Position numbers and translations under genes: made by a program
Notes under the pieces: model-generated
The model's input: only the letters and a program-made list of their open reading frames with translations
Databases searched by the model: none
What the model was told of the DNA's origin: nothing
Assembly (NCBI GenBank): GCA_017452265.1
Contig: JAFTMS010000030.1
Span: 1 to 56,842 of the forward strand
Direction of reading: 5' to 3'
Source of the DNA: Bacteroidales bacterium
Lineage (GTDB): Bacteria > Bacteroidota > Bacteroidia > Bacteroidales > UBA932
Length of the DNA stretch: 56,842 bases
Shown: positions 4,167 to 56,086 of the stretch, in pieces
Numbering within the stretch: position 1 is the stretch's first letter
Layout: each line of letters opens with the position of its first letter

Positions 4167-4217
4167 TCCGGAAAATCGCGCCTTTTTCCGGAGCACTGGC
4201 TCAAAAAGGCGTGTGCA
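4167..4217. repeat. REPIN-like hairpin repeat, site A (single unit)
   Basis: TCCGGAAAA (4167-4175), loop TCGCGCCT and TTTTCCGGA (4184-4192) form a perfect 9-8-9 hairpin. A 25-base tail (4193-4217) follows, starting GCAC, with CAAAAA in the middle and TGCA at the end. The second hairpin expected 51 bp further on is not recognisable. The loop is identical to that of the first hairpin at site E. It lies between the convergent 59-residue gene and the deformylase gene. Confidence 0.85.
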
Positions 4218-4255
4218 GAGTGACTCCCGAGACGGAGATTTCGCAGCCGCAGGAA

Positions 4256-4885
4256 TTACAGGCGGTCTGTGTAGAGGATACCGTCGAGGTGGTCGGTTTC
4301 GTGCTGGAAGATTACGGCTGTGAAGCCTTGCACGGTGTCGCGGACGGTTGAGGTGTAGCGGCTGGCTGAGTCGGCGTATTCGATTACGATTTCACGGGAG
4401 CGGAGCACCTGTCCGCGTCGGTTCGGGACGGACAGACAGCCTTCGGGCCCGTATTCAAGGGAGTCGGAATACCATATTATGCGGATGTTAGGATACACTT
4501 CGAACGGTTCTCCCGGCTTGTCGAAGCGCTGCACTGCCACCACTCTTCGGTTGAGGCCTACCTGTGGCCCGGCGATGCCGACTCCGTCCTGCGAAGGATG
4601 AGTGACCGTCGCAACCATGAGTCGTTCAAGCGTCTTGTAGTCGTCTGAAAGCAGGGCCTTCTGCGAGAGGTCTGTGCTTGCTGCCCTGAGAACTGCATTG
4701 TCGAGGCTGTCCTCGATTGTCAGCACGCGCATCGTGCCTTCGGGAATTCCAGCAGTCCTGACACCGTTTATCAGCGACAGCTCCTCCTGTGTGAAGTCTC
4801 CCTGAGATACACCGCCGCGGCATCCTGTGGCAGCGGACATTGTCATGATCAGAGCCATTGCTCCGAGAAAACGCACCGTCCTCAT
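4256..4885 (-). CDS. lipoprotein-type peptide deformylase homologue
   Basis: The three deformylase motifs are present: GVGIAGPQVG (101-110), EGCLS with metal ligand Cys150 (148-152), and HETDH (195-199). The chosen start at 4885 gives 209 residues and begins MRTVRFLGAMALIMTMSAATGC, a lipoprotein signal with lipobox Cys22. The upstream extension to 4966 would overlap ispF and bury the signal, so it is not used. Ordinary deformylases act in the cytoplasm on nascent chains at the ribosome. This one should be tethered outside the inner membrane, so its substrate is unclear. It starts 8 bases after the ispF stop, so the two are probably co-transcribed. Residues 23-95 extend the usual N-terminus. 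It may be a second, specialised paralogue. Confidence 0.85.
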   Translation of the reverse strand: MRTVRFLGAMALIMTMSAATGCRGGVSQGDFTQEELSLINGVRTAGIPEGTMRVLTIEDSLDNAVLRAASTDLSQKALLSDDYKTLERLMVATVTHPSQDGVGIAGPQVGLNRRVVAVQRFDKPGEPFEVYPNIRIIWYSDSLEYGPEGCLSVPNRRGQVLRSREIVIEYADSASRYTSTVRDTVQGFTAVIFQHETDHLDGILYTDRL

Positions 4886-4892
4886 GGCTGCA

Positions 4893-5860: not shown

Positions 5861-7714
5861 ATGGACATAAGGATATTACCGAGCAATATAGCAAATATGA
5901 TCGCTGCGGGAGAGGTTGTGCAGAGGCCTGCGTCCGTAGTGAAGGAACTTGTGGAGAATGCCGTGGACGCAGGAGCGGATCAGGTGACCGTGGTCATACA
6001 GGACGCAGGAAGGACGCTCATACAGGTGATCGACAATGGCTGCGGAATGTCTCCGGATCAGGCCGTGCTCTGCTTCGAAAGGCATGCGACATCGAAACTG
6101 TCCACAGCGGAAGACCTGAATAACATCCTGACGTTCGGCTTCAGAGGCGAGGCTCTGGCGTCGATAGCAGCGGTTTCGGAGGTGACGCTGAAGACGAGGC
6201 GCGAAGAGGATGAGGTGGGCTGTCAGGTGGATTTCGCAGACTCGCAGCACCTTGCCACTCAAGAAATTGCAACGCCGCGAGGCGCGAATTTCTCAGTGCG
6301 CAACCTGTTCTACAATGTGCCGGCAAGGCGCAAGTTCCTCAAATCCGACAATGTGGAGTTCAAGCATATCGTGTCAGAATTCACAAGGGTGGCGCTGACA
6401 CGTCCCGAGATAGGCTTCACGCTGACACACAACGGCCGTGACATATACGTGCTCCGCCCTGCCAAGTCGCTGAAATTCAGGATACAGGACATTCTGGGGG
6501 CAAACGTCGTGAATGACGTTGTAGATATAAAGGCGGAGACGTCTGTCGTGAATCTGTGGGGATATGTCGGGCGTCCGGATGCGGCAAAGAAAGGCCTCGG
6601 AAACCAGTATTTCTTCGTGAACGGGAGATATTTCCGCAGCCCGTATCTGCACAAGGCCGTGATGAAGGCCTATGAGAACCTCATCCCGGAAGGTGTGACG
6701 CCGAGCTATTTCATATATATGGAGGTGGATCCGCAGACGGTCGATGTGAACATACATCCGACAAAGACCGAAATCAAGTTCGAGGACGACAGTGTCATAT
6801 TCCAGATTGTGTATGCCTGCATAAAGGAGTCCCTCGGAAAGAATTCGTTCGGCGAGAGCATAGATTTCGACCGTGAAGGCGTGCCCGAGATACCGGCGTT
6901 CGGCAGGAATTTCGACGAATTCCGTCAGGTGCTGGAGCCGCAGCCCGGTGTGGACAGTTCGTACAATCCGTTCGACAATGACGGATTCCCGTCCGAAAAG
7001 CCGGCCTTCGACAATGCCTTCGTTCCGGAAATGTATCCGCAGCAGCCATCGGAGCCGGAAAGCGTCAGTCCGTCGTACGGCCGTGGAGCTTCGAGCTTCA
7101 TCAACAGACGCGAAGATTACGGCAAGCTGTTCGAAGACAGGCTCATGCCTTCGAAGTCCCTGCTCACGCTTCAAGGAAAATATATATTGACGTCGGCCCG
7201 CAGCGGCCTGATGGTCATTAACATAAGCCGCGCCATGGAGCGTGTCCTTTATGAACGTTTCCTCCGTGCCATGTCACGCAACGGGCATGTGACGCAGGCA
7301 TCGCTGTTCCCTGTGACGGTGCAGGTCGGCGTCGAGAACATGTGTCTCTTTGAGGAACATTCGGCGATGCTCTCCGGCCTCGGCTTCGACATTGCGCCGT
7401 TCGGGATGGATACCGTCGTGGTGAACGGAGTGCCGGAAGGATACAGCGTTGAGGCCGGAAAAGTACAGACGATGATAGGGGACCTGCTGCTGATTCTGTC
7501 GGAGGATCACAATGCCCTGGAAGAGATGATGACTGCCAATATGGCATCCCGTTTCGCCCGTCTGGGGGCTCTGAGTGCCGACTCTGTCACTGATCCGGCA
7601 GAGGCACAGAGATTGATTGAAGAGCTGTCTGCATGCGAGAATGCGGAGTTCACGAGCACAGGCCGCAGGATCATGACAATAATCCCGATGGAAGAAATAG
7701 AAAAGAAATTCTAA
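5861..7714 (+). CDS. mutL: DNA mismatch repair protein MutL (endonuclease motif lost)
   Basis: A GHKL ATPase that links mismatch recognition by MutS to downstream repair. ATP-binding motifs are intact: KELVENAVDAGAD (28-40), DNGCGM (58-63), HATSKL (75-80) and GFRGEAL (93-99). A poorly conserved Pro-rich linker spans about residues 350-430. The C-terminal dimerisation domain follows from LTLQGKYI. The usual endonuclease motif DQHA-x2-E-x4-E is altered: the aligned stretch reads NISRAMERVLYE, keeping the glutamates but not DQHA. The terminal C-P-H-G-R-P block reads STGRRIM. The nuclease is therefore probably inactive. The length of 617 residues is normal. The rhomboid gene follows after 1 base. 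Confidence 0.95.
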   Translation: MDIRILPSNIANMIAAGEVVQRPASVVKELVENAVDAGADQVTVVIQDAGRTLIQVIDNGCGMSPDQAVLCFERHATSKLSTAEDLNNILTFGFRGEALASIAAVSEVTLKTRREEDEVGCQVDFADSQHLATQEIATPRGANFSVRNLFYNVPARRKFLKSDNVEFKHIVSEFTRVALTRPEIGFTLTHNGRDIYVLRPAKSLKFRIQDILGANVVNDVVDIKAETSVVNLWGYVGRPDAAKKGLGNQYFFVNGRYFRSPYLHKAVMKAYENLIPEGVTPSYFIYMEVDPQTVDVNIHPTKTEIKFEDDSVIFQIVYACIKESLGKNSFGESIDFDREGVPEIPAFGRNFDEFRQVLEPQPGVDSSYNPFDNDGFPSEKPAFDNAFVPEMYPQQPSEPESVSPSYGRGASSFINRREDYGKLFEDRLMPSKSLLTLQGKYILTSARSGLMVINISRAMERVLYERFLRAMSRNGHVTQASLFPVTVQVGVENMCLFEEHSAMLSGLGFDIAPFGMDTVVVNGVPEGYSVEAGKVQTMIGDLLLILSEDHNALEEMMTANMASRFARLGALSADSVTDPAEAQRLIEELSACENAEFTSTGRRIMTIIPMEEIEKKF

Positions 7715-7715
7715 T

Positions 7716-8420
7716 ATGAGCTATTATTCATACGATAACGGCAGCCGTGGCGGCTTCATGAGCAATGTTCCCCCGGCGGTAAAGAACATAATAATCATCA
7801 ATGTCTGCGTGATGATCATGACGGCATTGAACGAGAACTTCATGTACGAGAAGTTCGCCCTCTTCTATCCGACATCTCCGTTCTTCCATTGGTGGCAGCC
7901 TGTCACCCACATGTTCATGCACGGCGGATTCTGGCATCTCTTCTTCAATATGTACACCCTGTACATATTCGGAACGGTGCTGGAGCGCGTATGGGGCACG
8001 AAGAAGTTCCTCCTGTTCTATTTCGTGACGGGTCTTGGTGCAGCGCTGATTCATACAGGTGTGGAATGGATACAGATGCAGGGATGGATGTCGCAGGTGG
8101 CGGAAGGCTCGATGGCCGCACAGGCTTCGATCCACGCTCTGAAGATGACTCCGACTGTCGGAGCTTCCGGTGCCATATACGGCCTTCTGATGGGCTATGC
8201 AATGCTTTATCCTGATTCCGTCATGACGCTCATCTTCCCTCCTGTATCGATGAAGGCCAAGTGGTTCGTCCTCATATTCGCCGGCATCGAGCTCCTGACC
8301 GGAGTGACTGGCGCGGGTGGCGGAATCGCACATTTCGCACATCTCGGAGGCCTGATTTTCGGTTTCCTCCTGATAATGTACTGGAAGAAAAGACATACGC
8401 TGTACAGCAGATACGACTGA
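7716..8420 (+). CDS. rhomboid family intramembrane serine protease
   Basis: A 234-residue polytopic protein that cleaves transmembrane substrates inside the inner membrane. Catalytic Ser151 lies in GASG (149-152) and His209 in HFAHLGG. The oxyanion-helping HxxxN motif is HLFFN (74-78), and WR-like loop residues (RVWGTKK, 91-97) precede the third helix. About six hydrophobic segments are visible. It starts 1 base after the mutL stop and its stop overlaps the next start (TGATG), so translation is coupled. Substrates are unknown. Confidence 0.92.
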   Translation: MSYYSYDNGSRGGFMSNVPPAVKNIIIINVCVMIMTALNENFMYEKFALFYPTSPFFHWWQPVTHMFMHGGFWHLFFNMYTLYIFGTVLERVWGTKKFLLFYFVTGLGAALIHTGVEWIQMQGWMSQVAEGSMAAQASIHALKMTPTVGASGAIYGLLMGYAMLYPDSVMTLIFPPVSMKAKWFVLIFAGIELLTGVTGAGGGIAHFAHLGGLIFGFLLIMYWKKRHTLYSRYD

Positions 8421-9541
8421 TGGCAAGGAAAAGGAAGACAGCGCATAAAGACGGAAAGAAGAAGAATCTCCTTTTCGGAATCACGTCCAGAGTGCTCATG
8501 CTCATAGTGGCTGCGCTTCTGGTGCTGTCTTATATGTCCATAGTCGTGAATCCGGCCAAGGTGTGGTTGATCTCCCTCGTGGGAATCATGTTCGTGCCAC
8601 TGTCGCTGCTTAACCTTTTCCTTCTGCTCTGGGCCTTGAAACGCCGTTCTAAATCCATCCTCATACCGCTCCTCGCCCTTCTGCCTGCCTTCTTCTTTGT
8701 AGGAAGGTACGTGCAGTTCGAGTCGGAGGAAGAGCGTCTTGAACGGGAGGCCTATGAGGGAAATCCGTTGAGAATCATGTCATACAACGTCGGACGTTTC
8801 GCGCTTCACGACACAGGTGCAGGCATAGACAGCAGTTCGGAATGTGCGGATTCCGTATTCAGCTATATCCGTTCGCAGAATCCTGACATCGTGTGCCTTC
8901 AGGAGGTGCATGTGGACGATGTGGACAAGGTGAAGAGCTATCTGCAGCGCAAGATGAACGGGTATCAGGCTGAGTATTACCTCTTTCCGACGAGAAAGGG
9001 AGCCTTCGGCAATGTCACGTTGAGCCGTATTCCCGTGGTGGGAAAGGGAAAGATAAAGTTCGAGGAAAGTGCGAATCTGGCGATATATACGGACTACAGG
9101 CACGAGGGCCGCAGCTTCCGTGTATATAACTGTCATTTCGAGAGTTACGGCATATCCTTCTACGGCATCGTCAGGGCTCTCATCAACCGTGAGGACAATG
9201 TGCTTTCAGATACGGGCACGAAGATGAAGAGGTCGATCACGAGACGCCCCAAGCAGGTGGATCAGGTATTTTCAGATATTGAGAACTGCCCGACGGAGGC
9301 GTTTGTGTGCGGCGACTTCAACGATAATCCGATGTCATATACATATTTCCGAATGACTCGTGGAAGAAAGGATGCGTTCGTGGATGCAGGAAGGGGCTTC
9401 GGGGCGACATATGCCCGTCTGTGGCCGATGCTGAGGATAGACTACGTCCTCTTCCCGGAGCGCTGCAGGGCCATATCCCACGAAATTCCGCGCCTGCCGT
9501 ATTCCGACCATTATCCGGTGGTGACGGAAGTTGAATTATAG
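8420..9541 (+). CDS. membrane-anchored endonuclease/exonuclease/phosphatase-fold protein
   Basis: A 373-residue protein. The start at 8420 overlaps the rhomboid stop and gives MARKRKTAHKDGKKKN, a basic cap before three hydrophobic helices (about 22-41, 48-72 and 79-96). The longer in-frame start at 8261 lies inside the rhomboid gene and is rejected. The C-terminal domain (about 115-373) has EEP superfamily motifs: MSYNVGRF, CLQEVH, CGDFNDNP and YSDHYPV. These are the metal-binding and catalytic Asn, Glu, Asp and His positions of a phosphodiesterase. Bacteroidota homologues of this layout are common. The active site probably faces the periplasm. Substrate (nucleic acid, sphingolipid or phosphoinositide-like) is unknown. 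Confidence 0.88.
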   Translation: MARKRKTAHKDGKKKNLLFGITSRVLMLIVAALLVLSYMSIVVNPAKVWLISLVGIMFVPLSLLNLFLLLWALKRRSKSILIPLLALLPAFFFVGRYVQFESEEERLEREAYEGNPLRIMSYNVGRFALHDTGAGIDSSSECADSVFSYIRSQNPDIVCLQEVHVDDVDKVKSYLQRKMNGYQAEYYLFPTRKGAFGNVTLSRIPVVGKGKIKFEESANLAIYTDYRHEGRSFRVYNCHFESYGISFYGIVRALINREDNVLSDTGTKMKRSITRRPKQVDQVFSDIENCPTEAFVCGDFNDNPMSYTYFRMTRGRKDAFVDAGRGFGATYARLWPMLRIDYVLFPERCRAISHEIPRLPYSDHYPVVTEVEL

Positions 9542-9549
9542 ATATAAAA

Positions 9550-9582
9550 AAAGCTGCCGAATCCATAGGACCAGGCAGCTTT
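9550..9582. terminator. bidirectional terminator between convergent genes
   Basis: AAAGCTGCC (9550-9558) pairs perfectly with GGCAGCTTT (9574-9582). An A-run precedes it and a T-rich stretch follows, so it can end transcription from both the EEP gene and the fimbrillin-like gene. Confidence 0.8.
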
Positions 9583-9603
9583 ATCGTTTATGACAGGCTC
9601 GGC

Positions 9604-10539
9604 TTACTCTTCAGCAGGGGTTGCGCTGAACTCTATTGCAGGCCATGTGTAAATAAGTTCCTCAACACCGTCACCATCCATGTCATAAGTGAAGCTGTTG
9701 CACTTGTATTCCTCATTCACATATGTGGAATTGTCGTCAAGAGTTATTTCCACCTTGAATGTGGTGGCGTGGGCATCATCCTCGCTCAGAACAGAAACGA
9801 ACTCAAATGCGCTTGCGCTGATGAAATAGGTCTTTGCCAGAACAGCATCCATGGCAATCTCGATAGAATTGACCGGCTCACCTGTGATTTCACCTGTCGT
9901 GAGATCATATGTGGCATTCTTATAAGCCATTGTCTTGTCGCATGAGATGACAACCTTCTTAACCTTCTTGCCTACTACAACATCATCGGTCGGCTGGAAT
10001 GAAATACCGCCTTCGATGCTGTAAAGGGTGGCGTCAGAGGCGAAATCAAGGCTCACTGCTACCGAAGAATACTCTGAAACGGAAGTCTTTGCTACAGCGA
10101 ATTGAGCCGTTTTGGTCTTGGCCTGAGTCATCATGCCGGCAAAATCTGTACCGGCATATGGATCATACTCATAAGTCTCCTGAACCGTGTAATCTACCGG
10201 AATCTTTGTGTAGTCAGTAACCTCCGCAGAATACGGATAGTATGCGTAGATCATATGCTCGCCCTGCTTGAAGCCTGCCTTCTCGCCTTTGGCATTGAGG
10301 GCTACGCTTTCTTCTACATCAAACGATGCAGGGACATATGCGAGGTTGGACTGAGCCACTCCGTCAGAAGTCACGAAGATGCCGATTTCGTCACCTTCTG
10401 CCCATGCGCCCTGAGCGCTGCTTCCATAAAGTGTCAGGTCGCCGACAATCGGAAAGTCAACGATTTCCGGCTCGTTGTCACATGCTGCAGCTGCCGCTAT
10501 CGTCAGCGCTGCGCAAACAAGATAATTTAGACGTCTCAT
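9604..10539 (-). CDS. fimbrillin-family-like lipoprotein
   Basis: A 311-residue exported protein. The signal MRRLNYLVCAALTIAAAAAC has lipobox Cys20. The N-terminal region carries the fimbrillin-type signature WAEGDEIGIFVTSDG, followed by NLAYVPASFD and YAYYPYS, which resembles Mfa/FimA-like beta-sandwich domains of Bacteroidota surface pili and adhesins. It is last in the ten-gene leftward run, 48 bases after the PKD-like gene, and ends at a strong terminator. It could be a pilus subunit or the accessory surface lipoprotein of the adjacent SusCD locus. Context favours the second. Confidence 0.7.
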   Translation of the reverse strand: MRRLNYLVCAALTIAAAAACDNEPEIVDFPIVGDLTLYGSSAQGAWAEGDEIGIFVTSDGVAQSNLAYVPASFDVEESVALNAKGEKAGFKQGEHMIYAYYPYSAEVTDYTKIPVDYTVQETYEYDPYAGTDFAGMMTQAKTKTAQFAVAKTSVSEYSSVAVSLDFASDATLYSIEGGISFQPTDDVVVGKKVKKVVISCDKTMAYKNATYDLTTGEITGEPVNSIEIAMDAVLAKTYFISASAFEFVSVLSEDDAHATTFKVEITLDDNSTYVNEEYKCNSFTYDMDGDGVEELIYTWPAIEFSATPAEE

Positions 10540-32517: not shown

Positions 32518-32604
32518 CTCATCCGGAAAAATGCCTCATTTTCCGGAGCACCCCACCATTTTTAAGGACTGCTCCGGAAAATCGCAGGATTTCCCGGAGC
32601 ACCT
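32518..32604. repeat. REPIN-like hairpin repeat, site B (doublet; 87-bp inverted-repeat arm)
   Basis: Two 9-8-9 hairpins start at 32522 (TCCGGAAAA, loop ATGCCTCA, TTTTCCGGA) and 32573 (TCCGGAAAA, loop TCGCAGGA, TTTCCCGGA, one mismatch), 51 bp apart. The whole 87 bp is, base for base, the reverse complement of 36790-36876. It fills the gap between the convergent galE and recO genes and reaches into the recO stop codon. Confidence 0.95.
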
Positions 32605-33881: not shown

Positions 33882-33928
33882 AATAAAAACTGCTTGATAT
33901 GTTCTACTAATACTACTAAAACCGCTGC

Positions 33929-33955: not shown

Positions 33956-34041
33956 GGCATTAAATGTGCCACAGATTACTCGGCTGCGCTCGGAAAGACG
34001 TAAGGATACGTTCGGAAAGACGTAGTCAGGTATCTATATAT

Positions 34042-35667: not shown

Positions 35668-35688
35668 ACCGTCATCAGGGAAGGACTT

Positions 35689-36327: not shown

Positions 36328-36366
36328 CGAATGCCGGCACAGGTGTAGGAATACCGAAAAAATTGT

Positions 36367-36374
36367 TACCTTTG
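36367..36374 (+). promoter_or_regulatory. -7 box for the 91-residue gene
   Basis: TACCTTTG fits TAnnTTTG and lies 46 bases before the ATG at 36421. No convincing -33 is present. Confidence 0.5.
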
Positions 36375-36420
36375 CGCTTGACTTTCGACAGAAACGTTTA
36401 AACACTTAATTTATACGACT

Positions 36421-36696: not shown

Positions 36697-36706
36697 GCAG
36701 AAGGAC

Positions 36707-36752
36707 AGATATAGAGGAAGCCGGCCCGCATGGGTCGGCTTCCTCTATATCT
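36707..36752. terminator. long symmetric hairpin after the 91-residue gene
   Basis: AGATATAGAGGAAGCCG (36707-36723) pairs perfectly over 17 bp with 36736-36752, and the loop adds GCCC/GGGT pairs. No T-run follows on either side, so it is an atypical terminator or a transcript-end stabiliser. It lies 38 bp before hairpin site C. Confidence 0.6.
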
Positions 36753-36789
36753 GACGGTGAGCGCTTCCCACTCTTCGCTCGGAATGTCA

Positions 36790-36876
36790 AGGTGCTCCGG
36801 GAAATCCTGCGATTTTCCGGAGCAGTCCTTAAAAATGGTGGGGTGCTCCGGAAAATGAGGCATTTTTCCGGATGAG
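36790..36876. repeat. REPIN-like hairpin repeat, site C (doublet; 87-bp inverted-repeat arm)
   Basis: Hairpins start at 36796 (TCCGGGAAA, loop TCCTGCGA, TTTTCCGGA) and 36847 (TCCGGAAAA, loop TGAGGCAT, TTTTCCGGA), 51 bp apart. The entire 87 bp is the exact reverse complement of 32518-32604. It fills the gap between the convergent 91-residue and MATE genes. Confidence 0.95.
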
Positions 36877-36899
36877 GGTCGGGAATTGGCATCCTGTCA

Positions 36900-38315: not shown

Positions 38316-38325
38316 AATCGAGGCA

Positions 38326-38333
38326 CAAAAATA
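38326..38333 (-). promoter_or_regulatory. -7 box for the MATE exporter
   Basis: TATTTTTG reads leftward, 10 bases before the ATG at 38315, which would give an almost leaderless transcript. No -33 was identified. Confidence 0.4.
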
Positions 38334-38351
38334 AGCATTTATAAAATAGGT

Positions 38352-38420
38352 AACGAGCAAAATGTCTGGAAATGCTTGTTTTTGTTCTTGGTCCTCCGAT
38401 TATAAAAAAGAGCAAAACGT
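38352..38420. repeat. hairpin repeat upstream of the RAYT gene
   Basis: AACGAGCA (38352-38359) and TGCTTGTT (38373-38380) form an 8-base stem with one G-T pair around a 13-base loop. A degenerate second copy, AGAGCAAAAC, begins near 38409. The stem matches the CACGAGCA/TGCTCGTG hairpins downstream of the RAYT (39362-39443). Confidence 0.6.
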
Positions 38421-38501
38421 ATAAAAAAGAAAAATCTGATGAATCTTTTTCATATTCTGGTGACATATCGGGGAAAGCATCATAACTTCATCGAAAAAAA
38501 G

Positions 38502-39359
38502 ATGAAAAGTTATTATCATGTGAGCAGTCACGGATTGGAAAGGAAGGACATCTTCAGGACAAGAGAAGATTTCATTGCGGGAATGAATGATATTGCGATC
38601 TGCGCATTGGGCTTTGATGTGCGCATTCTGTGCTTTTGTCTGATGAGCAACCATTTTCATTTTGTACTTTATGGAACGTACCAGGAATGCAGTGGTTTCT
38701 CAGAAGAATATAAGAGAAGATGTGCAGTATGTATGAGAAGAGGTCACGGTGAAGTGCAAGGCATGAAAGCCGTTGATCTAAACATAAGCGAGATTACCGG
38801 ACAAGACTATCTGGAGAATGTCATAGCTTATGTCATGAGGAATCCTCTCGCTGCAGGAATCTGTGTGATGCCGTACAATTACCCATGGTCATCTGCTGCA
38901 GTCTATTTTGGCGGAAGCAACTGCGATGGAGGGTCCAGATTGAATGACATGAGTGACAGGAAGCGTTTCCGTATCCTCAAGTCGCGTTTTGAAGTACCTG
39001 ACAACTATGTCGTAGATGACAATGGAATGGTACTGCCCTCATGCTATGTGGATTCGGTCTTGGTCGAAAAGATTTTCCGTCACCCGTCCAGGCTGCTGAT
39101 GCTGCTGGCGAGAAAGATAGAGAATGATGTGGAACTACACCTCGGAATAGCAGACCAGGTCAGCATGACAGATCAGGACATTCTCACACAGCTGCCAGTC
39201 CTTATAAGAAAGGAATTCAGAAAAGATACCATAGAACAATTATCTATGGAGCAGCGCATAAAGTTATGTCTTCTGCTAAAGAAGAATTATAGGTCTGGTG
39301 TCAAGCAGATTGCCAGAATTACCCGTCTGGATCCGGGAATGGTAGCAAAAGTCGTATAG
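38502..39359 (+). CDS. REP-associated tyrosine transposase (RAYT, Y1 transposase)
   Basis: An HUH single-strand endonuclease of the IS200-like Y1 family, the type that mobilises REP hairpins. The HUH motif is SNHFHFVL, preceded by LCFCLM as in RAYTs. The YVMRNPLAAG block and YPWSSAAVY downstream are diagnostic, the first probably supplying the catalytic tyrosine. Start 38502 (MKSYYHVSSHGL) aligns best with the family; 38439 is an open alternative. It has 285 residues with a C-terminal helical extension (GVKQIARITRLDPGMV) that could bind DNA. Base composition is AT-rich relative to neighbours. It is flanked on both sides by related hairpins, with no second transposition gene. Confidence 0.88.
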   Translation: MKSYYHVSSHGLERKDIFRTREDFIAGMNDIAICALGFDVRILCFCLMSNHFHFVLYGTYQECSGFSEEYKRRCAVCMRRGHGEVQGMKAVDLNISEITGQDYLENVIAYVMRNPLAAGICVMPYNYPWSSAAVYFGGSNCDGGSRLNDMSDRKRFRILKSRFEVPDNYVVDDNGMVLPSCYVDSVLVEKIFRHPSRLLMLLARKIENDVELHLGIADQVSMTDQDILTQLPVLIRKEFRKDTIEQLSMEQRIKLCLLLKKNYRSGVKQIARITRLDPGMVAKVV

Positions 39360-39361
39360 GT

Positions 39362-39443
39362 CACGAGCAAAATAGCCTAAAAATGCTCGTGCCCCCCAGG
39401 AAATTGAGAGGGTCACGAGCATTTTCGCTTTTTTTTGCTCTTG
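39362..39443. repeat. hairpin repeat pair downstream of the RAYT gene
   Basis: CACGAGCA (39362-39369) pairs perfectly with TGCTCGTG (39384-39391). A second CACGAGCA (39414-39421), 52 bp later, pairs with TGCTCTTG (39436-39443) with one mismatch. The inner TGCTCGTG and second CACGAGCA can also pair, giving a larger alternative fold. The second ends in a T-rich run and may serve as terminator. The geometry parallels the 51-bp TCCGGA family. Confidence 0.75.
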
Positions 39444-39448
39444 ATGTC

Positions 39449-40108
39449 CTACTCTGACGGACTTGTAAAAGTTGTGTATTGAAAACTTGTGGTAACAGTT
39501 CCGTCTTTTTTTAGTCCATAGGCGAAAATCATATATTCTACACCCGGTTTTATGATTACTTGCGGACATTCCCTGACTCCGCTTGTCACGATAATCATCT
39601 CCCACCATTTCTTCATCTCTTCGATACGCTGTATGGATACGAATCTTCGAATGCCGTCACTCATATCTGCATATAGGTCGAAAAGTGATTTTTCTATCAT
39701 GCTGCAATCATATGTCGCATCGAGATCAGCAGGTGTGATCCTATACCCGACATATTCCGATGTAAGATACTCAACATCCATATCAAATTTGAAACCTTTG
39801 ATCTTATCTTCATCAATGGTGAAATTATAAGAACTCCATTCGGAATCATAAAACAAAGTCGTATCCGCTGATATGGCTTTTACCTGCAGGCAGTAATCAC
39901 CTTCTGCAAGGTCTTCAAATCTCAAAGAAGTCTCTGTCGTACTTGGCAGACTTTCACCATTGAGTAGAATGTCATACTTCAGTGCATCATTGACATGATC
40001 CCAATGCACATCCTTGCGGTTATACTTTGCAAGAATGTCAGTTGCATCATGAATTCCGGGAGCATTTAACGGAACAACAGCATATTCTTCCTCCTCTTTT
40101 TCCTCCAT
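39449..40108 (-). CDS. putative lipoprotein body, fibronectin-III-like; signal peptide lies in another frame
   Basis: A 219-residue open frame starting MEEKEEEEYAVVPLN. Residues about 25-98 read like a fibronectin type III-type beta domain (VHWDHVNDALKYDILLNGE, AEGDYCLQVKAIS). The remainder is a second beta domain ending in a YMIFAYGLKKDG strand. No signal sequence is present in frame, and an in-frame stop directly precedes the ATG. A good lipoprotein signal exists 30 codons upstream, offset by one frame (40066-40200). Either an indel has broken the gene, a frameshift joins them, or the body is made without export. AT-rich. Confidence 0.6.
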   Translation of the reverse strand: MEEKEEEEYAVVPLNAPGIHDATDILAKYNRKDVHWDHVNDALKYDILLNGESLPSTTETSLRFEDLAEGDYCLQVKAISADTTLFYDSEWSSYNFTIDEDKIKGFKFDMDVEYLTSEYVGYRITPADLDATYDCSMIEKSLFDLYADMSDGIRRFVSIQRIEEMKKWWEMIIVTSGVRECPQVIIKPGVEYMIFAYGLKKDGTVTTSFQYTTFTSPSE

Positions 40109-40200
40109 TTATCAGTGCTGTCAGTCATTTCACAGCAGACGGCAAGCAGAAGTGTAGCTAAAATGCCCCCAAAAACGGCTAATATCTTTTTTATATCCAC
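40066..40200 (-). pseudogene. lipoprotein signal-peptide frame out of register with 39449-40108
   Basis: From a GTG at 40200, 5 bases after the upstream gene's stop, the frame encodes VDIKKILAVFGGILATLLLA followed by VCCEMTDSTDKW. It stops at 40066 after 44 codons. The hydrophobic stretch and cysteines look like a lipoprotein signal. The sequence AAA AAG (40101-40096), preceded by G, is a -1 slippery site. Slipping there enters the downstream frame at GAG GAG GAA. Homopolymers of six A and five T plus five G in the signal are alternative indel sites. Confidence 0.5.
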
Positions 40201-40205
40201 CTTGA

Positions 40206-40604
40206 TCACTGTTTAATGTATGGGGAACCGCTGCCATCAGGATACAGCTTATTACCTTCGATAGTAAGAATCATTCCTTTCATCGGAATATACACCTTGT
40301 TTCCATCAAGATAGTAAGTTGCCCTCTCTTCGCATCCTTCCTGAAAATACCAATTGCCGTATCCTAAAGATTCAGAAAAACCATCCCAGTGTCTGTAGTC
40401 ATGAAGACGGTCATAGTATTTAACAGTATTGCTATTGACGAAATCCAGGCCCCAAGCTCTTTTGCCTCCATCCAATCCGCCATATTCATCAACACGCAGA
40501 TATAGTCCTTTAAGTGCTCCGGCGTCCTTGCTGCATCCTGTAAATGAGATTCCCATCACAACAATAGCGAAAGCAATAAATACATAGTTCAATACTCTTT
40601 TCAT
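40206..40604 (-). CDS. small lipoprotein of unknown function
   Basis: A 132-residue lipoprotein. The signal MKRVLNYVFIAFAIVVMGISFTGC gives lipobox Cys24. The body is rich in aromatic and Gly residues (YLRVDEYGGLDGGKRAW, FSESLGYGNWYFQEGCE) with a final EGNKLYPDG. I recognise no family. Codon use is AT-rich, like its neighbours in this island. It stops 5 bases before the GTG of the frameshifted lipoprotein, suggesting one transcript. Confidence 0.7.
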   Translation of the reverse strand: MKRVLNYVFIAFAIVVMGISFTGCSKDAGALKGLYLRVDEYGGLDGGKRAWGLDFVNSNTVKYYDRLHDYRHWDGFSESLGYGNWYFQEGCEERATYYLDGNKVYIPMKGMILTIEGNKLYPDGSGSPYIKQ

Positions 40605-40689
40605 CTTGTTATAGTTTATTTGTACGTTTTTAAATTCAATCTTATTTTCAAACTGAATTCATTTTATTTTTTTAGTGATTTGAGTCCTG

Positions 40690-40930
40690 ATGTTGGGGAA
40701 GGTGACAAATAAAAAAGCATGGGACTCATTGCATATATCGGATTCTGCGGTCTTGGACTACCTCACACCCGGATAATAGAATAAAGCCCATGCAAGAAGC
40801 ATAGGCGTTGAACTTTATTCCATTGGGTGTGATTGTGAAAGTGTCCAAGTTTCAGAATCCCCGAAATATAGCTAACGCTTTAATATATATGTCAATCGTA
40901 GATTATTATATCATAGGCATTTGAATTTGT
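40690..40930 (-). ncRNA. candidate structured RNA or long attenuating leader
   Basis: The region folds into an extended hairpin (40740-40860). Five paired blocks alternate with small internal loops: GGATTCTG/CAGAATCC, CTTGGAC/GTCCAAG, TCACACCC/GGGTGTGA, GAATAAAG/CTTTATTC, and an apical GCCCATGC/GCATAGGC with one mismatch. Read leftward it follows a good promoter (40967-40937), and a run of T residues follows near 40712. It could be a 6S-like or other small RNA, the leader of the 40604 lipoprotein, or a miniature inverted-repeat element. Strand and ends are inferred. Confidence 0.4.
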
Positions 40931-40936
40931 TGCTTA

Positions 40937-40967
40937 CAAAAGTATACAATTATTGTCAGAATTCAAA
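40937..40967 (-). promoter_or_regulatory. promoter upstream of the structured region
   Basis: Reading leftward: -33 TTTG (40967-40964), 19-base spacer and -7 TACTTTTG (40944-40937), a textbook Bacteroidota pair. Transcription would begin near 40930, 70 bases before the long hairpin and about 325 bases before the lipoprotein gene at 40604. Confidence 0.65.
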
Positions 40968-40978
40968 CATGTGATGGA

Positions 40979-41953
40979 TTATCTGTATTTCCCTTCTTCC
41001 TCCAGCATTCCAAGGTAAGAACTGTATCTGTCATAACTGATCTCACCCGCCTCAACAGCCTCCTTCACGGCGCAACCGGGCTCATGAGTGTGAGTGCATG
41101 GAGTGAAGCGGCAGCCTTCGGAGGCTTTGAGCATTTCCGGAAAATAGAGGGCGACTTCCTCCTTCTTCAGGTCCACGAGGCCGAAGCCGCGCAGACCGGG
41201 AGTGTCTACTATGAAGCCGAGCGACGAAAGGGCGTACATCTCATAGAAAGTCGTCGTATGCCTTCCCTGGAGATGCGCATCGGAGATCTCCCCCACCCTC
41301 GGGTCGAGCGATGGGTCAAGAGCCTTTATCAGCGAGGACTTGCCCACTCCCGATACGCCTGAAAATAGCGACAGACAGCCCCTGCAGGCCTCTCTGAGCT
41401 CGTCTATGCCTTCGCCGGTCAGGGCCGAAACCTCCATCACAGGATAGCCTGCGCCCTCGTATATCTCATGAAAGGCCTCAAGCATCTCCCTGTGCGATTC
41501 GCGGTAGAGGTCCACCTTGTTCAGGACGATCGTAGCCGGTATGTTGTAGACCTCACAGGTCACGAGGATACGGTCGAGGAACGGGAGCTTCACCTCAGGA
41601 AAGTCGATTGTGGCTATGATGAAAGCACGGTCGAGATTCGCGGCTATGACATGGGCCTGACGCGAGAGGTTCGTGGACTTGCGGATGATGTAGTTCCGCC
41701 GTGGCATCACCTCTGTGATCACGGCCGGATTCTCCGGTGTGATGCCTCCATCGCAGGCAGCGCTGCATCCTTCAGGCACCTCCGCCTCGAATTTCACGAC
41801 ATCGCCCACAGCCACGGGATTTGTGGCGGTACTTCCCTTCAGCCTTATCCTGCCGCGAAGCACGGCGGGAAACAGCTTCCACTCCGGAAGCTGTGAAAGC
41901 AGATAATGACTGCCTGTATGCTTTACAACCGTTGCCTGTCCTCTAATTACCAT
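40979..41953 (-). CDS. rsgA: ribosome small-subunit-dependent GTPase A
   Basis: A circularly permuted GTPase that checks late 30S maturation. The G motifs are permuted: NKVDLYRE (G4) comes before GVSGVGKSSL (G1), followed by GRHTTTF (G2-like) and DTPGLRGFGL (G3). An N-terminal OB-fold (RGQATVVKHTGSHYLL) and a C-terminal zinc knuckle (CRFTPCTHTHEPGC) complete the layout. The length of 324 residues is normal. It is divergent from the prenyl synthase and is the last host-like gene before the AT-rich island. Confidence 0.95.
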   Translation of the reverse strand: MVIRGQATVVKHTGSHYLLSQLPEWKLFPAVLRGRIRLKGSTATNPVAVGDVVKFEAEVPEGCSAACDGGITPENPAVITEVMPRRNYIIRKSTNLSRQAHVIAANLDRAFIIATIDFPEVKLPFLDRILVTCEVYNIPATIVLNKVDLYRESHREMLEAFHEIYEGAGYPVMEVSALTGEGIDELREACRGCLSLFSGVSGVGKSSLIKALDPSLDPRVGEISDAHLQGRHTTTFYEMYALSSLGFIVDTPGLRGFGLVDLKKEEVALYFPEMLKASEGCRFTPCTHTHEPGCAVKEAVEAGEISYDRYSSYLGMLEEEGKYR

Positions 41954-41975
41954 AAGTATGAATCATATCCGGATG

Positions 41976-42012
41976 CAAAGATAATGAAATTCGTTTTTAA
42001 TCGTTATCTTTG
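41976..42012. promoter_or_regulatory. divergent -7 boxes for rsgA (-) and the prenyl synthase (+)
   Basis: TATCTTTG reads leftward at 41983-41976, 22 bases before the rsgA ATG. TATCTTTG reads rightward at 42005-42012, about 20 bases before the ATG at 42033. The two boxes are identical. No -33 TTTG is clear. Confidence 0.6.
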
Positions 42013-42032
42013 TCGGATTAGTTGAAAACGAT

Positions 42033-43016
42033 ATGATACAGGAGACACATATTGAGGGAGCGCTCAAGGAGCTGTTCGCAAACCTGAAGTTCACGCAGGA
42101 GCCAGCAGGGCTTTACGACCCGCTTAGGTATATGATGGAAATCGGAGGAAAGAGGATAAGGCCACGGCTCTGTCTGACGGCATATTCGCTGTTCCGCGAC
42201 GGCTTCACTCAGGAGATTCTCTCTCCGGCCTCCGCCCTTGAGGTGTTCCACAGCTTCACGCTCATCCATGACGACATCATGGACAAGGCGGACGTGCGCC
42301 GCGGCGTGCCGACGGTATACCGCAAGTGGGACGAGAACACGGCCATCCTTTCGGGCGACGTCATGTCGATAGAAAGCTACAAGCTGGTTGCCAAAGCCCC
42401 GGCCGCCGTGCTTCCGCAGGTGCTGGAACTGTTTTCGCAGACTGCCGCTGAAGTATGCGAGGGACAGCAGTACGACATGGATTTCGAGGACATGGAGCAG
42501 GTGCCGATGGCGGATTACATGAAGATGATCGGTCTGAAGACGGCTGTGCTGATAGCATGTGCGGCGAAGATGGGAGCGATCATCGGAGGGGCTTCCGAAA
42601 AGGAATGCGACCTGCTGTACAGATTCGGATACGACCTCGGTCTTGCGTTCCAGATTGCGGACGACTGGCTGGACACCTACGGTGACGAGAAGGTCTTCGG
42701 AAAGGCAATTGGCGGAGACATAGTGAACAACAAGAAGAGCTGGCTGCTGACAAGGGCGCTGGAGAAGGCAGGAGACAGGCGCGAGGCATTGCTTCTGGCG
42801 ATGGACATGCCTGTGGGTACAGAAGATGGAAAGGCTGCTAAAGTGGCGGCTGTCAAGGAGATATATGATGCTCTCGGAATCGGAGAGGAAGCGCAGCAGG
42901 AAATCGTGAGGCTGCACGGACAGGCGCTCGATTCCGCAAAGGCTCTTAACCTCGGGCCGCAGAAGTACGAGCTCCTGCACAACTACGCGGCAAAGCTTTT
43001 AGGAAGAACGAAATGA
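42033..43016 (+). CDS. polyprenyl diphosphate synthase (trans-isoprenyl family)
   Basis: Condenses isopentenyl diphosphate onto allylic primers. The aspartate-rich motifs are DDIMD (80-84) in FTLIHDDIMDKADVRRG and DDWLD around 213-217; GGKRIRP (38-44) binds diphosphate. The residues before the first DDxxD are Leu, Ile and His, which give no reliable chain length, so farnesyl, geranylgeranyl or longer products are possible. The length of 327 residues fits all. It overlaps the U32 protease gene by 4 bases. Confidence 0.88.
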   Translation: MIQETHIEGALKELFANLKFTQEPAGLYDPLRYMMEIGGKRIRPRLCLTAYSLFRDGFTQEILSPASALEVFHSFTLIHDDIMDKADVRRGVPTVYRKWDENTAILSGDVMSIESYKLVAKAPAAVLPQVLELFSQTAAEVCEGQQYDMDFEDMEQVPMADYMKMIGLKTAVLIACAAKMGAIIGGASEKECDLLYRFGYDLGLAFQIADDWLDTYGDEKVFGKAIGGDIVNNKKSWLLTRALEKAGDRREALLLAMDMPVGTEDGKAAKVAAVKEIYDALGIGEEAQQEIVRLHGQALDSAKALNLGPQKYELLHNYAAKLLGRTK

Positions 43017-44341
43017 ACAGGAAGAATTTAGAGATAATGGCTCCTGCAGGCAATTTCGAATGTCTGCATGCGGCCATACAGGGAGGCGCGGATTCCGTAT
43101 ATTTCGGAGTCGAGAAGCTCAACATGCGGTCGCATTCGGCCAATAACTTCAGGATGACCGACCTTGACGAAATCGTGAAGATATGCTCGGAGCATGGCGT
43201 GAAGACATACCTCACCCTCAACATCGTGCTCTACAATGAGGATCTTGAGGACATGAAGAGGACATTGGAGGCAGCGAAGAAGGCCGGCATCACGGCTGTC
43301 ATCGCTTCTGACATGGCCGCAATCGCATACGCCCGTCAGCTGGGAATCGAAGTGCACATATCCACACAGCTCAGCATATCGAACGCCGAAGCGCTGCGGT
43401 TCTACGCCCAGTTTGCGGACGTCATCGTGCTTGCCCGCGAGCTGAACCTGAGTCAGGTGAAGGAAATCAAGGCAGTCATCGACAGAGATCGCATCTGCGG
43501 CCCGTCGGGAAGGCTCGTGGAGATCGAGATGTTCGCCCACGGAGCGCTCTGCATGGCCATTTCCGGCAAATGTTATCTCAGCCTTCATGAATACGGAGCG
43601 TCGGCCAACAGAGGCTCATGCTACCAGCTCTGCCGTAGGGCATATCAGGTGAAGGACCGCGAGACGGGTATGGAATTAGAGGTGGACAACAAATACATAA
43701 TGTCTCCCAAGGATCTCTGCACCATCGGGTTCATGGACAAGATCATTGATGCCGGAGTGACCGTATTCAAGATAGAGGGACGTGCCCGTTCGGCCGAATA
43801 TGTCAAGCGTGTCGCATCATGCTACCGTCGTGCGGCGGATGCCGTATGCGAGGGCACATACACGGCGGAGCTCGGCACGAAGCTGAAGGAGGAACTGGCC
43901 GAAGTGTTCAACAGAGGCTTCTGGGACGGTTATTACCAGGGCGCACGCCTCGGAGAATGGAGCGAAGTGTACGGCAGCAAGGCCACCAGAAAGAAAGCCT
44001 ACTGCGGCAAGGTCACCAACTGGTTCGGCAGGCTTGGAGTGGCGGAGATACTCGTGGAATCCGGCTCGCTCAAGGTCGGCGACAAGATACTTGTGATCGG
44101 CCCTACTTCCGGTTGTATAGAATATACGGTTCCTGAGATCAGAGTGGATCTGAAACCCGTTCAGGAGGCACTCAAAGGCACATACTGCTCAGTTCCGATA
44201 GACTGGTCGAAGGTGGTTCCCGGCGCCCGGGAAGAGGCTCAGGGCCTGTGCGGCGAGAGCTGTGACGAGAATGCATGCAGAGCCATAGAAGAATCGCGTC
44301 TGCGCCGCAGCGACAAGGTCTATATCTGGCCGGAAGCCTGA
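43013..44341 (+). CDS. peptidase U32 family protein (tRNA/rRNA hydroxylation type)
   Basis: A 442-residue cytoplasmic protein of the U32 family. Typical stretches are IMAPAGNFECLHAAIQGGADSVYFG near the N-terminus, HISTQLSISNAEALRFYA, and the cysteine cluster FAHGALCMAISGKCYLS with SCYQLCRRAY, which in characterised homologues binds an iron-sulfur cluster. Relatives TrhP (YrrO/YegQ) and RlhA hydroxylate tRNA U34 and 23S rRNA using prephenate, so RNA modification is likelier than proteolysis. It overlaps the prenyl synthase by 4 bases. Confidence 0.88.
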   Translation: MNRKNLEIMAPAGNFECLHAAIQGGADSVYFGVEKLNMRSHSANNFRMTDLDEIVKICSEHGVKTYLTLNIVLYNEDLEDMKRTLEAAKKAGITAVIASDMAAIAYARQLGIEVHISTQLSISNAEALRFYAQFADVIVLARELNLSQVKEIKAVIDRDRICGPSGRLVEIEMFAHGALCMAISGKCYLSLHEYGASANRGSCYQLCRRAYQVKDRETGMELEVDNKYIMSPKDLCTIGFMDKIIDAGVTVFKIEGRARSAEYVKRVASCYRRAADAVCEGTYTAELGTKLKEELAEVFNRGFWDGYYQGARLGEWSEVYGSKATRKKAYCGKVTNWFGRLGVAEILVESGSLKVGDKILVIGPTSGCIEYTVPEIRVDLKPVQEALKGTYCSVPIDWSKVVPGAREEAQGLCGESCDENACRAIEESRLRRSDKVYIWPEA

Positions 44342-44359
44342 CCCGGTTTACTTCGCTCG

Positions 44360-44487
44360 TCCGTGAAACAGGGCTTATTTCCGGAGCACCCGCTCAAAAA
44401 GTTGCACTCATCCGGAAATATGGCAGATTTTCCGGACGACCCCTTCAAAAAGTTGCACTCATCCGGAAATTCAATCGTTTTTCCGGA
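44360..44487. repeat. REPIN-like hairpin repeat, site D (triplet)
   Basis: Hairpins begin at 44360 (TCCGTGAAA, loop CAGGGCTT, ATTTCCGGA), 44411 (TCCGGAAAT, loop ATGGCAGA, TTTTCCGGA) and 44462 (TCCGGAAAT, loop TCAATCGT, TTTTCCGGA), exactly 51 bp apart. CAAAAAGTTGCACTCA occurs identically before the second and third. The third extends to a 16-bp perfect stem with TGCACTCATCCGGAAA on the left arm, followed by a T-run, so it is also a strong terminator. It sits between the convergent U32 and SGNH genes. Confidence 0.92.
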
Positions 44488-44536
44488 TGAGTGCAGTTTT
44501 TGATGCATCTCGTAGTCTAAAGCCTGTGGCGGCCCG

Positions 44537-45628
44537 TCATCTGATGCCGTACTTCCTGAGAATCTTCAGAATCGGCTTTTCGATTGACTTTGCCCAGAGG
44601 GTGTAGCCGTAGTCGCCCGGATGTGTGCCGTCCACTGAGGTTTCGTGGAGCTCGTCTGTGGCATCGGTCTGTATGAAGTATACGTTCCTGTATTTCTTGC
44701 AGGCTTCCTTCATGAGCTTTGCAGCCATCTCCTGCTTTGCGTTCTCCTTAGCCTCGGTAGCATGGTCGAAGTTGCGCCTTTCGCGGTAGATGGTCTGCTG
44801 GAAGATGAGCGGAATGTCCGGATGTGCCGTCTGGATCTTCTCGATGAACGGGAAGAGCCTTTCCTCTATCATCTTTGCGTCCGGGTTCGAGAAGGCGTCG
44901 AAGACGAGGGCGTCGACATCTGCGTCACAGAGCACGTCGGCGAAATACGGCTGCATCTTGCAGTTTCCGCTGCATCCGAGGCTGAGGAACTGGATGCCTG
45001 TCCAGCGCATGAGCTGCATAGGATAGCTCATTGCAGGGCGGCTTGTGCTGATTCCGTGGGTGTAGCTTGAGCCGAAGATGCCCACGCGGTAGCGGAACGG
45101 TGATTCAAGAGCCTCGATACGGGCGCCTTCCTGCACTCCGATCTTTACGGAAAGCACCTCCGAATAGATAGGAAGATAGAGCATGCACTCCTTCTCGCTG
45201 TTGTCCATGTTCTTTATGAGCACGAGGTTGTCACCTCCCTTTTCCGGCTTGGTCGCTCCTGAAGCTGCCCAGAGCCACTGGTCGCCGTCCTTGATGTAGA
45301 GGTCGTATCCTCTGTAGGCTATTCCCATCGTGTTCACGGCATTGTACTGCCAGCCGAATTCCGTCTGTACTGAAATGGTGGTCGAATTGGTCTTGAAGAG
45401 GACTGCAAGGCCTGCCGGGCATCTCACCTGCCTGTTCTCTCCTTTAGTGAAGCCCTTGTACTTCACTGTGTCCACTCTGTGGTAAGGATTCGGTGTGTCC
45501 GGAAGAATCTTTCCGATGAGGTTGAGGTCCGAGGCCTCTGTGAATGTGTAGACTACGTCTTTAGGAGTCTGGGCGCCCATGGCAAAGGAGATTGCGGCAA
45601 GGGCAATGATAGTCAAAAGTCGTTTCAT
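44537..45628 (-). CDS. SGNH/GDSL-type esterase, exported
   Basis: A 363-residue secreted hydrolase. Start 45628 (MKRLLTIIALAAISFAMGAQ) gives a clean signal peptide; residues from 45673 are not typical. An N-terminal beta-domain (about 20-170) of the SGNH type-2 N-terminal kind contains YRGYDLYIKDG. The catalytic block begins GIFGSSYTHG, with serine in the Gly-Ser-Ser box, and ends DGTHPGDYGY, giving the Asp-x-x-His pair. Bacteroidota enzymes of this build deacetylate glycans. No adjacent glycan gene confirms that here. Confidence 0.88.
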   Translation of the reverse strand: MKRLLTIIALAAISFAMGAQTPKDVVYTFTEASDLNLIGKILPDTPNPYHRVDTVKYKGFTKGENRQVRCPAGLAVLFKTNSTTISVQTEFGWQYNAVNTMGIAYRGYDLYIKDGDQWLWAASGATKPEKGGDNLVLIKNMDNSEKECMLYLPIYSEVLSVKIGVQEGARIEALESPFRYRVGIFGSSYTHGISTSRPAMSYPMQLMRWTGIQFLSLGCSGNCKMQPYFADVLCDADVDALVFDAFSNPDAKMIEERLFPFIEKIQTAHPDIPLIFQQTIYRERRNFDHATEAKENAKQEMAAKLMKEACKKYRNVYFIQTDATDELHETSVDGTHPGDYGYTLWAKSIEKPILKILRKYGIR

Positions 45629-55800: not shown

Positions 55801-55898
55801 ACAGTGCCGTTTATCCCATATCCGCCCTGTGCGAGCAGGGGAGCGCCGCCCAGGCCAGCCAGCATGAGCGCCGCGCCAATTGTCAACAATCTGTTCAT
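52839..55898 (-). CDS. SusC/RagA family TonB-linked outer-membrane transporter (second pair)
   Basis: A 1019-residue outer-membrane barrel. The start at 55898 (MNRLLTIGAALMLAGLGGAP) gives a signal peptide; the frame to 55997 adds 33 untypical residues. A carboxypeptidase-regulatory-like domain (GINGTVSDSHGPVIGAAVVE) is followed by the TonB box and plug start DEVVVIGYGTVRKDDMTGSV, and AIYGSRASNGVIIITTKKG. The barrel ends YSLRLNINF. No sigma/anti-sigma or two-component regulator lies nearby. Facing MalQ at its 3' end raises a starch or maltodextrin link, but nothing in the sequence fixes the ligand. Confidence 0.93.
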   Translation of the reverse strand: MNRLLTIGAALMLAGLGGAPLLAQGGYGINGTVSDSHGPVIGAAVVEQDTSNGTSTDLDGSYSLTVSSPESVVEISCIGYRTVTYPASQIPQNVILQEDNEFLDEVVVIGYGTVRKDDMTGSVAAIKAEDINRGAVVSTQDMLKGKVAGLLVTPGDGGPGSGSRIRIRGSASLNASNDPLIVIDGVPIASGAGGAMSNPLDLLNPNDIESFSILKDASAAAIYGSRASNGVIIITTKKGRGDTLQIAYNGSFSIQQNTRSVPVMSPSELREYYSQTYPAGTSTGDRIEELYGTSSTDWQALIFRTAFVTEHNVSLYGNLYEHIPLRASVGYSGQNGTLESSRYDRGTADISLTPSFFDKHLSIDLNMKGVYAHSDYADSGAIGKAAFFNPTQDPRWRNADGTIDYSTTNGWWNYGNGRGDEFSPNTLVGPSPLSMIYDNISTAASKRFIGRMAVNYKVHGFEALSFNVSAGLDITATDSYNGVRPGSFQAYTDTQNLGIGQYSKGRHISRSQLFETYANYNETWGIHTLDLLAGYSWQNNYWSNRSVSYYNETHEINLSNGLTPEEMYPIWRNENYLISFYGRANYSVDSRYVFTLSVRADGSSKFAKAHRWGIFPSGAFAWNVAGEDFMKDAKAVSTLKFRLSAGVTGQQDGIGDYVHLARYIRTTDTGKTYFMGADTEGNAIYSFPLTPQAYDPEIKWETTLTYNAGIDFGFFGERLTGSVDAYIRNTRNLLNSVQIPMGSNFGNKLMTNVGSIRNRGLEFSLSGIPVQTGDWSVQVGFNGTFQNTEFTKLNTTEDKNYYIETGTISKGTGGYLCRQMVGYAPYTYYVYQQKYDADGKPLQNEFVDCDGDGAITGNDRYMSGKSVTPKFYYGVNAKVSWKNWDFGFNGHGSAGTWVFNDFASANSTSSLDLNAGNLPNQAKLVKKTGFTAPNSGEQWYSDYFIENASFFRLDDINLGYTFRAVGSFSTDIRVAFGVQNVFIITGYSGMDPEVISENGIDNTIWPRPRTYSLRLNINF

Positions 55899-56009
55899 AT
55901 CAAGTCCTGTTTTATATACAGAACCGATATAATCAATCCTTATTCCAAACTGAATCCCTTGATTAACCGGCGTGAGATTTTCGTGACATTCCGCCAAAAC
56001 CCTTGGTGC

Positions 56010-56086
56010 TCCGTGAAATCGCGCCTTTTTCCGGAGCAGTCATGCAAAAAATCTTGTTGCTCCGGAAAATCAAGCTTTTCTCCGGA
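56010..56086. repeat. REPIN-like hairpin repeat, site E (doublet)
   Basis: Hairpins begin at 56010 (TCCGTGAAA, loop TCGCGCCT, TTTTCCGGA) and 56061 (TCCGGAAAA, loop TCAAGCTT, TTCTCCGGA), exactly 51 bp apart. The first loop equals that of site A. The 25-base spacer GCAGTCATG followed by CAAAAAATCTTGTTGC keeps the family pattern. Unlike the others, this site lies upstream of a susC gene and not between convergent ends. Confidence 0.9.

Follow-up and report, generated by a model that had tools for sequence, protein, structure and literature searches.

REP (repetitive extragenic palindromic) elements are among the commonest bacterial repeats, and how RAYT transposases choose and spread them is still an open question. 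The closest described system is TnpAREP subclass 2.6, or RAYT group 5, whose HUH Y1 genes, mostly from Bacteroidetes, are flanked by footless repeats with copies elsewhere. In the available text of Quentin et al. (2018, PMC6006769), Bacteroidetes TnpAREP genes carry 'atypical secondary structures' that recur elsewhere in the genome, and the REPs of subclass 2.6 and class 3 have no GT[AG]G foot. The REPINs of Pseudomonas fluorescens, according to the available sections of Bertels and Rainey (2011, PMC3116915), are non-autonomous extragenic doublets with fixed spacing and a RAYT link, some of them in tandem arrays. The atypical Bacteroidetes TnpAREP repeats, in outline, and fixed REPIN spacing are both already known. 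In E. coli, BIMEs (bacterial interspersed mosaic elements) and the REPtron are extragenic palindromes in arrays flanking rayT. The dRS3 repeats of Neisseria have an 8-nt variable core between their arms. Here we describe arrays of palindromic TCCGGA-type units with a 51-bp period in a stretch of 56,842 nt (the window), which is contig C26 of assembly G000 (2.56 Mb, 45 contigs, 84.5% complete), assigned to Bacteroidales from the SusC-like TonB receptors in the window and from named relatives. These arrays are probably non-autonomous mobile repeats of a RAYT (HUH Y1 transposase) system, a divergent variant of REP. The window holds them at five sites, as follows.

Site A, 4167..4192: a single TCCGGAAAA-N8-TTTTCCGGA unit (start 4167), between a DUF4465 gene (+) and a peptide deformylase gene (-).
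Site B, 32522..32598: two units (starts 32522 and 32573), 51 bp apart, between an epimerase gene (+) and recO (-); the 87-bp element of site C on the opposite strand.
Site C, 36796..36872: two units (starts 36796 and 36847), 51 bp apart; 100% identity with site B across 87 bp.
Site D, 44360..44487: three units (starts 44360, 44411 and 44462), 51 bp apart, flanked by convergent genes.
Site E, 56010..56086: two units (starts 56010 and 56061), 51 bp apart; the open reading frame (ORF) of a TonB receptor has its 5' end 12 bp away, and the array is inside a longer repeat common to loci L026 and L031.

An earlier note on this DNA had listed ten hairpins of one build at these sites, and direct reading and the scan agree with it: arms near TCCGGAAAA and TTTTCCGGA enclose a loop that scores best at 8 nt every time, and adjacent units start exactly 51 bp apart at B, C, D and E. 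B and C are copies of a single 87-bp element, with 100% identity between the two strands on which they lie. Of the 14 copies of the arm TCCGGAAAA in the window, 12 lie inside arrays; the shuffle mean is 0.45, and none of 100 shuffles reached 14. The unit is a 26-bp dyad, TCCGGA-W4-S6-W4-TCCGGA, followed by a 25-bp spacer with an AT core, and most copies consist of two units (~87 bp). Contrary to the earlier note, the loops do not vary freely; they are GC-rich, and adjacent loops are alike (mean 4.97 of 8 positions identical over 33 pairs). This likeness is greater in direct orientation in 23 of the 33 pairs, in inverse orientation in 4, and tied in 6, with single arrays such as L031 being inverted. 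Such mostly direct, AT-phased arrays differ from REPINs, which are inverted doublets in the available text of PMC3116915. The BrickBuilt MITE (miniature inverted-repeat transposable element) of Porphyromonas gingivalis, also from Bacteroidales, is likewise a dispersed intergenic element with tandem repeats, but in the portion available (PMC4596501) its repeats are 23 nt long without spacers and have leader and tail units, whereas here the period is 51 bp with 25-bp spacers. The dRS3 and CGTC-type repeats, as far as the available text of PMC3733652 goes, share a variable core within conserved inverted arms, and those arms differ from the TCCGGA arrays.

The earlier note had made a family depend on many copies at a constant period, and the assembly has both. 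At up to 3 mismatches, 71 places match in G000, compared to 1 for the reversed control pattern. Thirty array sites, which cover part of these places, were compared further; among 29 of them (the duplicate L054 excluded), 5 hold one unit, 19 two, 3 three and 2 five. The copies are extragenic palindromes: one of the 30 sites lies well within a strong ORF (L035:7203), and 4 others touch ORFs, which are taken as start or end artefacts. The array in question, L035:7203-7279, has two units and lies within an open reading frame of 1269 aa (6111-9920).

Mobility was judged by comparing the 30 array sites with one another, each with its 300-bp flanks. In most listed site pairs the homology spans the array and ends a few bases beyond the outer dyads. 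The identical 87 bp of sites B and C lie on opposite strands in unrelated flanks, which points to mobility. Three groups are exceptions, in which homology extends further: L018 and L054 are identical across all 677 bp compared, site E shares 218-246 bp with L026 and L031, and L017 and L027 have 110 bp in common, including a second repeat. The longer repeat at E, L026 and L031 (region 56010-56230 in the window) also holds an AGCGCTG..CAGCGCT-like palindrome besides the array. A second dispersed repeat, CGTCATTCCGAGCG..GGGAATCTC, of CGTC type by its first letters, adjoins TCCGGA arrays by eye in L017, L020, L027, L028 and L033. The gene pair that flanks site D stands ~24 bp apart in G013, with no array between. 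The L022 gene, used as a second synteny probe, has relatives of at most 56% identity. It should be mentioned that in G024 (L256), directly downstream of the orthologue of the left-hand gene at site D, TCCGT..ACGGA dyads stand 51 bp apart by eye, as another arm variant in a similar place.

Arrays of this family also occur next to transposase genes in related genomes. TCCGG arrays stand beside divergent IS200-like (RAYT) genes on both sides at L086, L120 and L187 (3 units upstream and 8 downstream at L187), and on one side at L179, where the units are downstream only, with period 52 and a weak scan score, and were read by eye. The RAYTs of L120, L187 and L179 form one clade on the RAYT tree (support 98/85). 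The likeness to REP/REPIN that the earlier note had drawn thus stands in kind, as RAYT-type genes in related genomes are flanked by matching repeats; these arrays have no GT[AG]G foot, their doublets are mostly direct, and no cognate RAYT was seen in G000. The dispersed copies with similar ends, the identical pair in unrelated flanks and the TCCGG-flanked RAYTs of four other genomes are the grounds for regarding the arrays as mobile repeats, on which the RAYT system would have acted.

The window also has a RAYT of its own, overlooked by the earlier note, which together with its own array spans 38353-39442.

Degenerate GAGCA-type dyad, 38353..38379: upstream of the window RAYT gene.
RAYT gene, 38502..39359, + strand: divergent RAYT/TnpAREP-like HUH transposase of 285 aa, with NHFH and YVMRN motifs and a C-terminal helical tail.
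First downstream GAGCA-type dyad, 39363..39390: in the window RAYT array.
Second downstream GAGCA-type dyad, 39415..39442: starts 52 bp after the first.

This protein has the HUH and catalytic Y motifs and the TnpAREP fold, as RAYT/TnpAREP proteins do. It is not of the subclass 2.6 type (NH[LIV]H, YIH[QN]NP, median 179 aa), having NHFH, YVMRNP and 285 aa. More generally, the RAYTs considered here are ~285-320 aa long with a helical C-terminal tail and Y-V/T-x-RN, compared to the median of 179 aa and YIH[QN]NP given for subclass 2.6 in the available text of PMC6006769. The array of the window RAYT was not scored strong by the automatic flank scan. Elsewhere in the genome, GAGCA dyads gave 178 matches at up to 3 mismatches against 176 for the control, no signal beyond the flanks of the window RAYT. 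It is noted that four other RAYT matches (L200, L206, L208 and L243) were each counted with one stop, yet have open pieces of 304-306 aa, so that the stop may be the normal end.

To see how general the spacing is, RAYT loci were taken from 12 genomes chosen for holding TCCGGA-type arrays, a choice from which the genus-wide frequency of such RAYTs does not follow. The flank scan, which scores inverted 6-mers and ignores spacing, covered 71 of 77 loci (five duplicates and one locus with a 2-base flank were dropped), with shuffled DNA of every third locus (23) as the null. Strong arrays (score at least 2.5) were found at 31 of the 71, the maximum of the 23 shuffles being 1.7. The commonest gap among the strong loci is 50-52 bp in 17, 71-73 in 7, 82-85 in 4 and other in 2, and one has no gap between 40 and 110. 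Over the 28 loci with a spacing label, the RAYT tree shows 4 changes of class (shuffle mean 10.1, minimum 6 of 1000), and 2 changes between 51 and longer spacing (shuffle mean 8.9, minimum 5). Array spacing is therefore fixed per RAYT clade, at 50-52, 71-73 or 82-85 bp, while the arms differ: arm words vary among loci within one spacing class, and at L170, for example, ATTTAGTGAA-type pairs stand 73 bp apart on both sides of the RAYT. The arrays tend to be particular to each RAYT.

The AT content of the arrays is phased with the helix. In the window's own family (33 units), 38% of the Fourier power of the 51-bp AT profile lies at 10.2 bp, and block permutation reaches 38% in 0, 0, 43 and 3 of 5000 trials for blocks of 3, 4, 5 and 6. 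Around RAYT genes (200 permutations per locus, p clipped at 0.0025), 10 of 18 loci with a gap of 49-53 have the fifth harmonic ranked top (combined p 6e-15), and 4 of 9 loci with a gap of 70-75 have the seventh (p 7e-7). The 95% level of random windows is exceeded by all 24 of the own arrays and, in other families, by 27 of 41, with a peak at 10-10.5 bp; as the own arrays are homologous, their 24 are not independent cases, and more weight falls on the other families. The rayT flanks of E. coli K-12 show no 10.3-bp AT periodicity (shares 0.007 and 0.000; one locus), in which the BIME/REPtron locus compared differs from the arrays here. A fixed, helix-matched array period also sets them apart from subclass 2.6, for which the available text of PMC6006769 makes no mention of one, and among the literature matches listed, nothing joins RAYT repeats to helical phasing or to clade-fixed whole-turn spacing. 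Together, the clade-fixed whole-turn spacing and the AT phasing suggest double-stranded recognition or DNA bending in target choice. We tentatively propose, somewhat short of even confidence, that a long-RAYT clade in one Bacteroidales genus reads a helix-phased double-stranded array, with dyads 5, 7 or 8 whole turns apart as set by the transposase clade, an AT tract nearly every turn, and the arm letters free; spacing, and not the palindrome, would be the conserved code.

Comparison across genomes shows what is kept. TCCGGA is spaced 20, then 31 bp, across species, and the inner A4/T4 pairing is not the conserved part, being lost in some arrays of L120, G043, G067 and G131; the period is 52 in G007. 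When 121 genomes (own included) were scanned with a 77-bp two-unit pattern at up to 3 mismatches, 9 matched: G000 (34), G021 (7), G048 (6), G043 (2), G067 (2), G070 (1), G131 (1), and G121 and G133, whose single 3-mismatch matches are probably chance. A 41-genome search gave matches in 12, with constant-spacing series in G000, G021 and G007 only and the others taken as chance. The GTDB scan with the exact hairpin returned 84 stretches, 80 of which were kept as loci; most are lone matches, taken as chance. It confirmed 51-bp arrays at L068, L086, L088 and L120, whose genomes (G137-G140) have 6, 3, 5 and 17 two-unit matches (control 0). L092 and L131, which had a loose pair in the first scan, have no array on closer scan. 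In an order-wide search of 79 genomes, matches outside the genus cover the core only. Among its 14 loci (L281-L294), L281 is in-genus with gaps of 52 and three have short flanks; the ten out-of-genus RAYT loci with usable flanks have no 51/73/83 series, some, at gaps of 36-43, beat the shuffle null, and L293 and L289 have one pair each with a 10.4-bp share above 0.1.

Two further candidates were rejected. A coding repeat (51 bp being 17 codons) is at odds with the period of 52 in G007 and with stops, by eye, in some frames of the G021 arrays. An RNA hairpin kept by covariation is at odds with inner arms that are often mismatched in G000 (pair 6-21 has 33 Watson-Crick and 9 G-T of 62) and with some non-complementary inner tracts in L120, G043, G067 and G131. 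Rfam at gathering scores gave no match in the window. A DNA uptake sequence was also considered, in view of the 12 of 14 exact TCCGGAAAA copies in the window that fall in arrays, as was a core site of a tyrosine recombinase, in view of the 8-bp core.

The convergent placement that the earlier note had reported at four of the five window sites holds, at A, C and D by our home-made gene caller, and at B by recognition of recO. Over the 30 sites, 11 are convergent, 9 tandem, 3 divergent, 5 overlap an ORF and 2 are at a contig edge, compared to background gaps of 6 convergent, 22 tandem and 8 divergent. Convergent placement accounts for 11 of the 23 classed sites but for 6 of the 36 background gaps, an enrichment with p 0.012 in a one-sided Fisher test; with site B reclassed from overlapping to convergent, it is 12 of 24 against 6 of 36 (p 0.007). 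With 9 tandem and 3 divergent placements besides, avoidance of promoters fits as well as a role in termination.

Several observations weigh against the RAYT explanation or its helix-phased form. RAYT-like genes found in G000, in an 84.5%-complete assembly, have no TCCGGA array within 450 bp, and none of 124 hairpin sides in the arrays has an adjacent GT[AG]G foot. The TCCGG-flanked RAYT of L086 does not fall in the clade of L120, L187 and L179; its TCCGGA-type arms would be due to either arm exchange or convergence. No strong array was found at 40 of the 71 RAYT loci, the null being shuffled DNA and not flanks of other genes. Three strong loci do not have a class gap as the commonest (L231, 41; L190, 58/53; L241, none), and several have extra odd gaps, such as 104 at L230, 93 at L229 and 149 at L086. 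The 81-86 gap class (82-85 spacing) is weak, with 4 loci and p 0.03, and the three spacings alone indicate just a broad optimum near 10.5 bp. Single-stranded folding is strong for either strand of the arrays (six folds, z from -4.7 to -10.7), which fits ordinary hairpin recognition with no double-strand reading. The gene pair of site D is kept only in the own genome and G013 among 30 neighborhoods (own included), so that synteny hardly tests insertion.

The strong folding speaks for one alternative, that these are ordinary REP/REPIN hairpins, in which the RAYT recognizes single-stranded hairpins only and copying from one ancestral array has merely brought the 10.2-bp phasing along. Fixed doublet spacing (71 and 110 bp) is also known for Pseudomonas REPINs in the available text of PMC3116915, but RAYT families that use other arm words show the phasing too (27/41 arrays), several species lack the inner pairing, and the single E. 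coli rayT locus shows no phasing; we consider this explanation rather unlikely, while taking it seriously. Helically phased AT tracts and the convergent enrichment (11/23 vs 6/36) speak for arrays at convergent gene ends that selection keeps as binding sites of a host factor, either gyrase or a nucleoid protein, as proposed for BIMEs. This appears improbable, as the TCCGGA family occurs in a minority of congeners (9/121 matched, two seemingly by chance) and family-specific arms at RAYT genes would be needless for a shared host factor.

A role as bidirectional intrinsic terminators or stabilizers of mRNA 3' ends, in line with the suggestion of the earlier note, would account for the four window sites between convergent gene ends, for the short reach to the 3' end of a flanking gene (below 60 bp in 19 of 38 distances), and for the stable folds. 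The scan of 32300-45000 speaks otherwise: none of its nine terminator-like matches is at B, C or D, where a GC stem with an immediate T run was not found, and the tandem and divergent placements weigh against termination, which leaves this role very improbable. Finally, the constant 8-nt variable core between conserved arms might recall recombination targets or arrays for phage attachment that resemble Neisseria dRS3. We give this analogy hardly any credence, as the exact pattern was found in just 2 IMG/VR stretches and RAYT genes are what the arrays were seen to flank.

Returning to mobile repeats of a RAYT system, a cognate RAYT, missing from this assembly or lost, would have copied the arrays. 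The transposase may read the array as bent DNA or as double-stranded DNA whose dyads share one helix face, possibly via its C-terminal helical tail and/or multimers; after this reading, the hairpins would be cut and copied in single-stranded DNA at replication. The enrichment at convergent 3' ends would then result mainly from the purging of insertions elsewhere. The RAYTs of related genomes, with different arms and one of three spacings, are natural variants for testing recognition. If the phasing is a code, a family of HUH single-strand enzymes would have an added layer of double-strand recognition, and a simple rule, that the period equals whole turns, would serve to find such families in other genomes.
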